Positions 23,046-38,416 of a stretch of DNA of 38,513 nucleotides are shown one piece after another. The position numbers and the translations under genes were made by a program. The stretch comes from Clostridiaceae bacterium BRH_c20a (GTDB lineage: Bacteria > Bacillota > Peptococcia > Peptococcales > BICA1-8). The stretch's first letter is position 1, and each line of letters opens with the position of its first letter. Below the pieces are notes generated by a model. It saw only the letters and a program-made list of their open reading frames with translations. It was not told where the DNA came from and did no database searches. Location of the stretch: contig LADT01000045.1 in NCBI GenBank assembly GCA_000961765.1, positions 1 through 38,513 on the forward strand, read 5' to 3'.

Positions 23046-24290
23046 CTACGCTCCATACAATTTATTATTGTTTGTTATTTTAGCTAAAGCTAATTGTCGA
23101 AGAATGAATCGAGTAAATGATATGGCTGTAAACATACTAGCCAAGATACCAATACTTAGTGTTAATGCAAAGCCTCGAATTGAGCTCGTACCAAAATAAA
23201 TCAGTACAGCAGAAGCAATCAGGGTTGTTACATTTGCATCAAAAATAGTCCAGAAGGCCCTGGAAAAACCGGCATCAACGGCAGCCCGTAAGCTTTTGCC
23301 GTTTTTCAATTCTTCCTTAAGTCTCTCATAAATAATAACATTAGCATCAACCGCCATACCCATTGACAATAGGAAACCTGCGATTCCCGGCAATGTAATA
23401 GTTGCGTTTATCCCTATTAGAATACCCCAAACAATAAGGGTATAAAGAACCAAGGAGAAACCGGCAACAATTCCAGGTATTCTATAGTAAACTATCATAA
23501 ATAATAAAATACTGGCAATACCGTAAAGAGCAGCATTTTGACTTTTGACTAAAGAATCCAGACCTAGTTTGGGTCCAACAGTTCTTTTTTCAATTATATC
23601 AAGAGCAACCGGTAAAGCACCAGAACTAAGTAAGATTGCTAAATTATGGGCTTCCTCGAGGGTACTAAAACCTCCCGATATACTAGCCTGCCCATTTGTA
23701 ATAACAGATCCTACCAAAGGTGCTGAAATCAACCGGTCATCTAAAAATATTGCAATGACTCTATTGGGGTCATTTTCATTTTCACTATATTTATCAACCA
23801 ATTCTCTTGTTACTGCTGCAAACTTCTTAGCACCCTCGGCATTAAGTTCTAAACCAACAAAATTCTTTTTACCAGGATCAGGTTCACTAGGATCCATTCC
23901 CTCTTTGGCAGTTTTTAAATCCTTACCGGTTATAACTGTTTCTAAAGTGTCCACCCTTTTAAATTCTAATAAAGCAGTTTTGCCAATCAAATCAACTGCT
24001 TCTTCCGGATTATTAACACCAGGTAATTCAACAAGGATTCTATTATCACCTTCTCGGCGTATTTCAGGCTCAGTTACACCTAAGCTATTAATTCGATTAT
24101 CAATAATGGCTATTGCTTTTGCCATATCTTCATCAGTAGCATTTTCAGGAGCTTCTAGGCGAACCAAAACGCCACCTTTTAAATCAAGACCCAATTTAAC
24201 ATTGTTTTGAAATGGTTCAATAGCAGCAAATGTTAGTACAGCTATAATAAGAACGGTTATTAATACTAATAGCAATCTTTCCCAACGCAT
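23046..24290 (-). CDS. secD: Protein translocase subunit SecD
   Basis: A 414-residue membrane protein. After the first helix (about 6-24) comes KLGLDLKGGVLVRLEAP. A shortened periplasmic P1 domain follows, then five further helices with GMAVDANVIIYERLKEEL. The first periplasmic region is smaller than in E. coli SecD, as usual in Bacillota. AGGAGGAG precedes the ATG. A TTGAAA-17-TATAAT promoter lies upstream and secF follows, so secD-secF is a two-gene unit. yajC is not adjacent here; the ParM-like gene lies between. Confidence 0.97.
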   Translation of the reverse strand: MRWERLLLVLITVLIIAVLTFAAIEPFQNNVKLGLDLKGGVLVRLEAPENATDEDMAKAIAIIDNRINSLGVTEPEIRREGDNRILVELPGVNNPEEAVDLIGKTALLEFKRVDTLETVITGKDLKTAKEGMDPSEPDPGKKNFVGLELNAEGAKKFAAVTRELVDKYSENENDPNRVIAIFLDDRLISAPLVGSVITNGQASISGGFSTLEEAHNLAILLSSGALPVALDIIEKRTVGPKLGLDSLVKSQNAALYGIASILLFMIVYYRIPGIVAGFSLVLYTLIVWGILIGINATITLPGIAGFLLSMGMAVDANVIIYERLKEELKNGKSLRAAVDAGFSRAFWTIFDANVTTLIASAVLIYFGTSSIRGFALTLSIGILASMFTAISFTRFILRQLALAKITNNNKLYGA

Positions 24291-24407: not shown

Positions 24408-24439
24408 AAAAAAAAATTACGCGTTTTAAGCGTAATTTT
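24408..24439 (-). terminator. Terminator of the ParM-like gene
   Basis: Stem AAAATTACGC/GCGTAATTTT (24439-24430 with 24422-24413), loop of seven, then a long T run. The 5' arm begins in the last codons of the gene and the loop holds its stop codon; the T run falls after the stop. Confidence 0.85.
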
Positions 24440-25460
24440 CATCGACAAACTTATATGCACTTTTATATAAGTTGGAGCACAGCTTTTGGTACCCTCGCAC
24501 ATTGGCAAACTGAGCACCCTTTATCAATTCCATGTTACCAAACTTAGGTAATAGATACTTGGAAATTGCCTCTCCTCCGCCACCAGTTAAAATTATTCTG
24601 TCTAAATCCCTTTTTTCCCAGATAGAATTTATTTCAGTAGCAATTTTATTAGTCACAATGGAAAAAGCCTCATTGATATGCTCTTCCACATTTATTGATT
24701 CCCCCGCAACCCTTAGAATGCCGGTTTCTACAACTTTATCCAGTTGATAGCTTTCTTTATTAATTAAATATTTTTCACGGAATTTCTCGGTTAGAAAGTT
24801 AAATGCTGTGCTCATAGCAATATCAGTAGAGCTACTAAGCTTATCAATAAATTCCAAACTATCAGCTACTGCAAAATCCGATGTTTTAAAACCTATATCA
24901 ACAATACCAAGCTTTAGCTCACCGAATGTTTGATCCTTTATTTCGCCCTCATCGTTGAGTATTTTATCATAAAGAGTACCAAAGGGCTGCGGAATAATTT
25001 GTAGTTTTTCAATTTTAATTATTTTACTTTTTTCTTGTTGACCATTATCGATTTTAATAGCATGCATTCCCAGCATTAACTCAGACCAATCATCTCTAAA
25101 GTTGGAGTAATAATCAACAGGCAGACCTGTAATTACATTAAAACTCTGATCTTCCTTATCAGCATATAAAGCTAAAGCCGCTAACAATAATACCTTAGCG
25201 CTGGTGTCTTCAATTCTATTTCTACCTAAAGAACGAGAAACTACTTCGCTTTGTTTGATAGCCAGCTCTCCAACAAAATACTTTTTATTATCAACAGTTA
25301 TTGCCAGATTGTCAGTAGGTTTACTAAAACTAGTTAACAAACTTTTAAATCTGATTTTTTGACCGATACCTACGGTACTAGGAAATACATGTGCAGTTTG
25401 ACCATCAGTTACTTTAACATAGCCATATCCTAAATCAATTCCAATATTTTTCCCGAACAT
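24426..25460 (-). CDS. ParM/Alp-like actin homologue, chromosomal
   Basis: A 344-residue actin-fold ATPase of the ParM/StbA and archaeal Ta0583-like group. Phosphate-1 is GIDLGYGYVKV (residues 7-17). Phosphate-2 is GIVDIGFKTSDF (185-196). The adenosine loop is LTGGGGEAIS (291-300). These cover the nucleotide site, so ATP binding and filament formation are plausible. Plasmid ParM works with the adaptor ParR and a centromere; neither is next to this gene. It has its own candidate promoter and terminator, so it is monocistronic between yajC and secD. AGAGGAGG lies six bases before the ATG. Filament partner and cargo are unknown; a cytoskeletal or segregation role is inference only. Confidence 0.8.
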   Translation of the reverse strand: MFGKNIGIDLGYGYVKVTDGQTAHVFPSTVGIGQKIRFKSLLTSFSKPTDNLAITVDNKKYFVGELAIKQSEVVSRSLGRNRIEDTSAKVLLLAALALYADKEDQSFNVITGLPVDYYSNFRDDWSELMLGMHAIKIDNGQQEKSKIIKIEKLQIIPQPFGTLYDKILNDEGEIKDQTFGELKLGIVDIGFKTSDFAVADSLEFIDKLSSSTDIAMSTAFNFLTEKFREKYLINKESYQLDKVVETGILRVAGESINVEEHINEAFSIVTNKIATEINSIWEKRDLDRIILTGGGGEAISKYLLPKFGNMELIKGAQFANVRGYQKLCSNLYKSAYKFVDENYA

Positions 25461-25490
25461 TATATTCCTCCTCTTTTACGCCCTATAACA

Positions 25491-25556
25491 ATTATAGATT
25501 ATTTCCAAAGCTTGTCCTAGTAGCTTTAGACCCATCATTCTAGGACTGGAGTCCTA
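25491..25556 (-). promoter_or_regulatory. Candidate promoter and operator of the ParM-like gene
   Basis: Minus strand AGGACA (25518-25513), 16 bases, TATAAT (25496-25491). About 22 bases upstream is a perfect 16-base palindrome, TAGGACT-GG-AGTCCTA on the plus strand (25541-25556). A further copy of its half-site, TAGGAC, overlaps the -35 box (25519-25514). The arrangement suggests a dimeric regulator, but none is encoded alongside. Confidence 0.45.
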
Positions 25557-25575: not shown

Positions 25576-25597
25576 AAAAAGCCCTATAGGGCTTTTT
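25576..25597 (-). terminator. Terminator after yajC
   Basis: A perfect stem AAAAAGCCC/GGGCTTTTT with loop TATA directly after the yajC stop codon. The T run is within the stem on both strands, so it could act in both directions. Confidence 0.8.
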
Positions 25598-25599
25598 AT

Positions 25600-25914
25600 T
25601 TATCTTTCATCATCATCATTAGTTGTATTCGCTTCAGATAAAAGAGGCTTTTCATCTTGCTCATCATCTTCAATTACTTGGCCAATAGAAGTTTTCAAAA
25701 AGGTAATATTTACACCTTTTGCCACATCTAAGACAATTCTATCTTCATTAATAGTCTTGATAACGCCTTCAATCCCGCCAATAGTAATTACTTTATCACC
25801 TTTACGCAGGTTACTTAACATTTCTCGCCGTTTTTTTTGCTGTTTTTGCTGTGGTCTGATCATCATAAAATAAATCAGAGCAAAAAACATTGCTAATAGA
25901 ACAAAATTATTCAA
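25600..25914 (-). CDS. yajC: Preprotein translocase subunit YajC
   Basis: A 104-residue accessory subunit of SecDF. One N-terminal membrane helix (about 3-18) is followed by the signature MIRPQQKQQKKRREML and the soluble core LRKGDKVITIGGIEGVI. The C-terminus is acidic. The order queA-tgt-yajC is widely conserved in bacteria; normally secD follows directly, but here the ParM-like gene is interposed. Confidence 0.95.
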   Translation of the reverse strand: MNNFVLLAMFFALIYFMMIRPQQKQQKKRREMLSNLRKGDKVITIGGIEGVIKTINEDRIVLDVAKGVNITFLKTSIGQVIEDDEQDEKPLLSEANTTNDDDER

Positions 25915-37977: not shown

Positions 37978-38050
37978 GAATTATTGCTTTTTTAACTCGC
38001 CCACGCGCCCACTGACATGCAGTATAGCAGTGGAGTAAGACGAATAGACG

Positions 38051-38076
38051 CATTTATCCATGCAAATGGATAAATG
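38051..38076 (-). repeat. Perfect 11-bp hairpin, also beside the intact 5S gene
   Basis: CATTTATCCAT (38051-38061) pairs perfectly with ATGGATAAATG (38066-38076) around four bases. An identical copy at 38270-38295 lies five bases 3' of the intact 5S gene; this copy lies five bases 3' of the 5S fragment. It may be a processing site for the 5S 3' end. Confidence 0.7.
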
Positions 38077-38081
38077 AAGTT

Positions 38082-38115
38082 CCTGGCAACGACCTACTCT
38101 TCCAGGACCCTGCGG
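38082..38115 (-). pseudogene. 5S rRNA 3'-end fragment (34 bases)
   Basis: Identical to the last 34 bases of the intact 5S rRNA at 38301-38334 (plus strand CCTGGCAACGACCTACTCTT onward, to CCTGCGG). The homology ends abruptly at 38115, after which a shortened flank repeat A begins. A non-functional duplicate. Confidence 0.9.
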
Positions 38116-38295: not shown

Positions 38296-38300
38296 AAGTT

Positions 38301-38416
38301 CCTGGCAACGACCTACTCTTCCAGGACCCTGCGGTCCAAGTACCATCAGCGCTGGAGGGCTTAACTTCTGTGTTCGGTATGGGAACAGGTGTGGCCCCTC
38401 CGCTATTGTCACCAGG
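38301..38416 (-). rRNA. rrf: 5S ribosomal RNA
   Basis: A complete 5S rRNA of about 116 bases on the minus strand, from CCTGGTGACAATAGCGGAGG to GACCGCAGGGTCCTGGAAGA and the closing GTTGCCAGG. Conserved CCGAACACAGAAGTTAAGC (loop B/helix III) is present, and the ends pair (CCTGG/CCAGG). It is followed by a processing-type hairpin and a terminator and preceded by flank repeat A. The 23S gene is expected just beyond the right edge but is not in the window, so whether this 5S belongs to a full rrn operon cannot be seen. Confidence 0.97.

Follow-up and report, generated by a model that had tools for sequence, protein, structure and literature searches.

Genes and signals at the locus

The window, by which the whole analysed stretch of 38,513 nucleotides is meant, lies on a contig of the core chromosome and carries at positions 24426..25460 on the minus strand a parM-like actin gene, which starts with ATG, encodes 344 amino acids and is recognized by its open reading frame, by profile matches and by an AlphaFold model. 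The open reading frame reported at these positions in an earlier note on this DNA, which gave no strand, is real and is read from the minus strand; a plus-strand reading is ruled out, as stops occur throughout and no open reading frame is left. The protein matches the Pfam domains ALP_N (1.1e-36) and MreB-like_C (6.5e-13), and its best PHROGs family is phrog_691, 'partition protein' (5.1e-72), matches that are all far beyond chance. It scores 118 bits against a cut-off of 417 with the NCBIfam ParM equivalog NF010498 (PRK13917), 101.2 bits against 214.8 with PRTRC system protein D (TIGR03739) and 59.2 bits against 300 with the FcmB model (NF052678), remaining below the cut-off of each. In the 4.5-Mb genome, the gene is the sole ALP_N gene; three genes of the MreB type are also present.

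Upstream, yajC (25600..25914, minus strand) is found at a distance of 139 bp and downstream, secD (23046..24290, minus strand) at a distance of 135 bp, with no other open reading frame of note on either side, such that the gene splits the yajC-secD pair as had been claimed. An intrinsic terminator (24412..24440, minus strand) is located on the stop codon, which bears out the description of the gene as having a terminator of its own, and a further terminator with a symmetrical stem lies between yajC and the parM-like gene (25576..25597). Co-transcription with yajC or secD was rejected on account of these terminators on both sides. The candidate sigma-70 promoter AGGACA-16-TATAAT (25491..25518, minus strand), likewise named in the earlier note, is present but weak, with a consensus match of only 10/12, and promoter-like matches are common in the region (14 found versus 8.3 expected from shuffling).

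Compared with the DNA upstream of an 85%-identical ortholog (G004), the DNA upstream of the gene is unconserved except for the Shine-Dalgarno sequence GAGGAGGAA (25465..25473, minus strand), and iterated or centromere-like repeats, sought on both sides of the gene, were not found. With yajC and secD as the neighbours, the adjacent ParR and the adjacent centromere repeats of a ParM-ParR-parC system are both lacking, in agreement with what the earlier note had concluded. A riboswitch or known RNA was equally sought in the flanks, where nothing came close to the gathering score. At the end of the contig, a 5S rRNA gene is located at 38300-38416 (minus strand), part of which recurs as a direct copy at about 38034-38115, 219 bp away.

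Nucleotide site and fold of the protein

The protein possesses the ASKHA nucleotide site with its three motifs exactly at the residues described before, namely the phosphate-1 motif at residues 7-17 (GIDLGYGYVKV, with D9; 25410..25442, minus strand), the phosphate-2 motif at residues 185-196 (GIVDIGFKTSDF, with D188; 24873..24908, minus strand) and the adenosine motif at residues 291-300 (LTGGGGEAIS; 24561..24590, minus strand). In a 48-member family alignment, D9 is invariant or nearly so and D188 and G293-G295 are invariant; the key residues are kept in the relatives, and the loss of the site that the earlier note had named as evidence against its reading did not occur. Q158 of PQPFGT (24987..24989, minus strand) occupies a column that is at least 90% conserved; by motif and from knowledge of the fold, we take it to be in the position and role of the catalytic glutamine of actin.

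An AlphaFold2 model calculated from the family alignment has a mean pLDDT of 88.6 and a pTM of 0.87. Its best structural match is Dh-cParM1 (Z 38.5 over 338 residues), followed by CorM (33.0), pCBH ParM (32.8), Ta0583 (31.8), which is presumably a stand-alone chromosomal actin, and Alp7A (31.6). Profile comparison with solved structures points in the same direction, with pCBH ParM at 2e-76 and Dh-cParM1 at 7e-45, and with pSK41 ParM, CorM and Ta0583 among the further matches. The structure prediction proposed in the earlier note therefore places the global fold nearest to ParM and not to a non-polymerising ASKHA protein. That the protein is such an ATPase after all, Hsp70-like or sugar-kinase-like and resembling ParM in looks only, has very little probability: Hsp70 nucleotide-binding domains do align at Z near 24.6-25.3, within the range of about 24-26 that also holds MamK, MreB, eukaryotic actin and even R1 ParM (25.9), but most ParM-type structures score at 28-38.5, the N-terminal Pfam domain is of the ParM type and the longitudinal plug positions are hydrophobic in the subclade of the window protein.

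These plug positions, L41 and F45, are part of a subdomain-2 loop (residues 41-45; 25326..25340, minus strand) delineated by pairwise alignments, and align by eye with two hydrophobic residues of pCBH ParM that its non-polymerisable mutant (6IXW) has changed to Asp. They are mostly hydrophobic in the subclade of the window protein, not in the rest of its branch. As Dh-cParM1 polymerises, through a ball-and-socket contact of subdomain 2 as in pCBH ParM (PMC12270681), and as the plug positions are hydrophobic in the subclade, the window protein is likely to polymerise as well.

Close relatives, history of the site and constraint

In another genus of the family (G004), the 85%-identical gene lies immediately before secD, with the contig ending such that the yajC side is out of view. 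Between yajC and secD of G003, a second genus, which by SecD identity to the window (85% versus 76% for G004) is the closer relative, only about the last 80 codons of the parM-like gene are left, and at the yajC-secD site of G001 and G002, two further genera of the family, blastx detected no trace of it. In G037, a 58%-identical gene is cut down to a 62-residue remnant, while orthologs of 54-61% identity in other families of the class are found in unrelated locations. These remnants and absences indicate that the yajC-secD site is common within the family and that the class has seen more than one loss of the gene, which is dispensable at least in some relatives. Since the position between yajC and secD marks the family of the window and orthologs elsewhere reside in unrelated places, the Sec neighbourhood is uninformative on function.

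Where it is kept, the gene evolves slowly and is under constraint. Between the window and G004, its dN of 0.082 is the lowest of eight neighbourhood genes (RelA 0.096, MBL 0.136, SecD 0.150, Dtd 0.150, Apt 0.194, SecF 0.210, RecJ 0.271), with no ratio given as dS is saturated. This constraint bears on the possibility that a mobile element left the gene behind as an orphan motor, which would act only with the ParRs of visiting plasmids or phages, if it acts in any way, as a helper or by interference. The many plasmid, phage and integrative-element relatives in the family, the orphan state, the patchy distribution and the recent losses are in line with such an origin; on the other hand, slow protein evolution, an active site intact across families at 54-85% identity, the failure to find a plasmid or phage record with a relative at 60% identity or above and the persistence of the family mostly as single chromosomal copies argue against it, and we consider it improbable.

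Phylogeny and neighbourhoods of the family

In a scan for the family, named genomes provided 80 loci, and trees were built with 84 rows (first tree) and with 71 rows including an added sample (second tree), from both of which the published chromosomal ParMs are absent as named rows. The trees part three groups, (i) an integrative-element type from Thermoanaerobacter, Sporosarcina, Oceanobacillus and others, in which ParM is followed by a ParR-like ribbon-helix-helix gene, (ii) a mostly solo branch that includes the window protein and (iii) a long-branched clade linked to bactofilin. The second tree puts clade iii beside two solo genes, L131 and L136 (support 96/88). L140, L152 and L153, each of which has a ribbon-helix-helix-like gene immediately after ParM, group there with ii and iii, not with i. 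A Moorella stamsii row (L105) is placed outside ii and iii, and four viral contigs (L111-L114) encode ParM-like proteins of 26-28% identity. A partition cassette that lost ParR and afterwards gained new partners would be the simplest reading of these relationships, in trees with long branches and a root that is not fixed.

Across Bacillota, window-type relatives mostly stand alone in unrelated neighbourhoods. The survey of gene neighbours for a constant partner, suggested in the earlier note, was thus answered in two ways: within 2.5 kb, no constant partner was found for the solo branch beyond close relatives, but the sister clade has one, a bactofilin. The window gene itself, located between yajC and secD, has no bactofilin directly downstream and is placed in the solo branch. 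Several solo-branch neighbourhoods are worth recording. In L040 (7839-9020) and L041 (1957-3141), a solo ParM gene has a ParB/Noc-like gene on one side and the chromosomal soj-spo0J (parAB) pair on the other. In L032 (6034-7956), L033 (3791-5713) and L026 (9895-11817), the solo ParM follows a gene for a 640-amino-acid protein that is apparently secreted; L026 is the locus of G037, where the ParM gene has decayed to a remnant. PH28_bin88 (contig LAKY01000016.1) harbours both a solo-branch ParM (L043) and a bactofilin-linked one (L062), about 45 kb apart.

A bactofilin-linked sister clade

In clade iii, which in the first tree comprises L048-L070 and L109, a bactofilin-like gene follows directly downstream on the same strand, no more than about 150 bp from the ParM stop codon, in 21 of the 24 loci, the exceptions being L053, L060 and L109; the truncated L102 also has one. 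Seven out of seven downstream genes tested from the clade score above the Pfam Bactofilin cut-off. A second sample, which covers 398 genomes of the phylum and overlaps the first in part, showed the downstream bactofilin in 11/11 clade-iii loci and in 0/19 others. The genes beyond the ParM-bactofilin pair differ among the loci. With one to a few bactofilins per genome and about 2,500 genes, we estimate that adjacency by chance would be on the order of one in a thousand. Furthermore, the distances among clade-iii ParMs and among their bactofilins are correlated (Mantel r 0.90 for 20 pairs; 0 of 5000 permutations), which fits a long history of joint inheritance. In the open-access literature, where absence is not proof, no report of a ParM-bactofilin pair was found. 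In two loci, a second, short and tail-less bactofilin comes after the tail-bearing one downstream of ParM (L067:6165-7309 and L068:8966-10177), and upstream of both ParM genes lies a very large gene (about 1,555 codons) that begins like a protein kinase.

This pairing suggests that actins of the sister branch have been recruited for jobs beyond the movement of plasmids. Of the chromosomal or envelope cargo that the earlier note had envisaged, it would favour the envelope for the family, by analogy only. An unlinked bactofilin as the partner of the window protein itself, which would create an envelope-associated scaffold, is a special case of the reading preferred below. The linked bactofilin of the sister clade, a solo-branch locus (L042) with a bactofilin-domain gene upstream that ends 44 bp away from ParM and the one clear bactofilin in the genome of the window (G000:C23) speak for such a partner, but G000:C23 does not have the C-terminal tail of the linked type and about two thirds of the phylum have bactofilins anyway, which makes this partnership rather unlikely. 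The mere presence of a bactofilin in solo genomes was discarded as support, being uninformative when a bactofilin above the cut-off is present in 124/199 genomes of the phylum.

C-terminal tails and an Hfq-fold partner

Among 28 distinct ParM-linked bactofilins, 25 have a variable linker followed by the C-terminal motif F-x-x-[ST/V]-[YF/I]-COOH, for example FYSSY, FHSSF, FINSY or FQTVF; L051, L066 and L142 are without it. Among unlinked bactofilins, the motif was seen in none of 40 fetched controls and none of five others at hand. It was the linked set that first revealed the motif, which was then tested on the controls, and the difference (Fisher's test, 1e-16) is to be read with the kinship of the rows in mind, of which 18 form eight groups at 70% and five groups at 60% ParM identity.

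Another partner is encountered in the wider branch of the window, at about 40% identity to the window protein, where a gene for an Hfq-fold protein overlaps the 3' end of ParM including its stop codon (L045:9043-9438, L046:9043-9465 and L047:2256-2690). The Pfam Hfq match of 0.004 is below the cut-off and the mean pLDDT of the AlphaFold model, derived from three sequences, is low at 59.8, but its core of a helix and five strands reaches 70-90 and fits Hfq at about 0.7-0.9 Å in many top PDB entries. Beyond the core, a disordered linker leads into a C-terminal helix. By eye and in six short sequences, the tails of this partner (such as RLDNLVRNW and RLDHLVKNL) seem to resemble those of the ribbon-helix-helix ParR-like proteins (KLDNLISNF in L153, KVDLLVDQF in L140 and KINNIIENL in L152). 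Docking by a C-terminal tail has a precedent in R1 ParM, which has been solved with a C-terminal peptide of ParR (PDB 4A62), and we infer that the bactofilin, Hfq-fold and ParR-like tails dock onto their respective actins.

Search for an adaptor in the genome of the window

With no ribbon-helix-helix, Hfq-fold or bactofilin gene beside its own, the window protein would use an adaptor encoded elsewhere or work without one. An unlinked protein with a tail of the ParR/Hfq type was not recovered by a DNA pattern from five genomes (G000, G004, G026, G030 and G031), where the hits overall were no more numerous than in a reversed control and none was a convincing gene. Equally, a profile of ten ParR-like proteins, run without a positive control, gave no match in the own genome, and a ParR can be too divergent for a profile of ten proteins. 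These searches bear on a role in chromosome segregation, in which an unlinked, diverged ParR and chromosomal parC sites would engage the filament to aid the nucleoid, as proposed for cParMR cassettes. Chromosomal ParMs with ParR do exist, one with a ParR-binding chromosomal parC (PMC12270681), and the solo genes of L040 and L041 reside next to soj-spo0J; however, besides the profile result for a ribbon-helix-helix ParR, the lack of repeats near the window gene and the different neighbours of other family members make this role improbable.

Interpretation and significance

Integrating these observations, the window protein is probably a domesticated, filament-forming ATPase of the ParM lineage that serves a non-plasmid task within an adaptor-exchanging family. 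It would bind and hydrolyse ATP and very probably assemble into dynamic filaments. It may descend from a motor that drove a mobile ParM-ParR-parC partition cassette and that was subsequently retained on the chromosome while the linked ParR and the centromere were lost. The filament might now perform a cell-biological task other than plasmid partition, such as positioning or cytoskeletal support, and a putative adaptor encoded elsewhere would dock onto it via a C-terminal tail as ParR does.

Related branches encode, where the ribbon-helix-helix partner would be expected, a bactofilin or an Hfq-fold protein with a conserved C-terminal tail. A more far-reaching and tentative proposition, to which we give less credence than to domestication itself, is that the docking tail has been kept while the cargo domain was exchanged from ribbon-helix-helix to an Hfq-fold ring or a bactofilin, that a partition motor has thereby become an envelope- or RNA-associated module and that solo members including the window protein use unlinked adaptors of this sort.

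The clade-iii bactofilin with its C-terminal peptide offers a concrete partner that can be put to the test, and a membrane or cell-wall scaffold as a possible cargo. If confirmed, the actin-bactofilin couple would be an example of a plasmid motor turned to cell biology, and the solo member in the window poses the complementary question of whether an actin works with an unlinked adaptor or with none.

Comparison with known systems

Species free of plasmids have already been reported to carry chromosomal ParMs, one of which is without ParR; such ParMs are known to polymerise, with their job as an open question (PMC12270681, JBC 2025), and a ParM-derived shape actin, FcmB, is known (PMC12645912). 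The bare observation of a chromosomal ParM without ParR is consequently not new in kind; the new part is the family context with its exchanged partners, and the main text of PMC12270681 mentions neither bactofilin nor secD.

Dh-cParM1 (PDB 8X1I) shares with the window protein the ParM fold, the chromosomal location and the origin from Bacillota, with 24% identity over the structural alignment, but differs by a conserved downstream cParR, whereas Nt-cParM2 appears to be without ParR like the window gene (PMC12270681). The closest solved sequence, pCBH ParM of a Clostridium botulinum plasmid (PDB 6IZR, 6IXW; 26-27% identity), is equally hydrophobic at the subdomain-2 plug positions, yet is plasmid-borne. 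The best phage match, the SPO1-type partition protein gp27.9 (about 32% identity), is, unlike the window gene, carried by large Bacillus phages. Ta0583 of Thermoplasma (PDB 2FSJ) has the ParM-like actin fold of the window protein, but is archaeal and only 19% identical. CorM of Anabaena (PDB 9RMI; Z 33.0) belongs to the ParM lineage like the window protein, its filament having been solved, however, in the presence of CorR. Finally, FcmB of Nostoc, of the ParM lineage and chromosomal, has been shown to control cell morphology and differs from the window protein by a linked FcmC that is annotated as ParR (PMC12645912).
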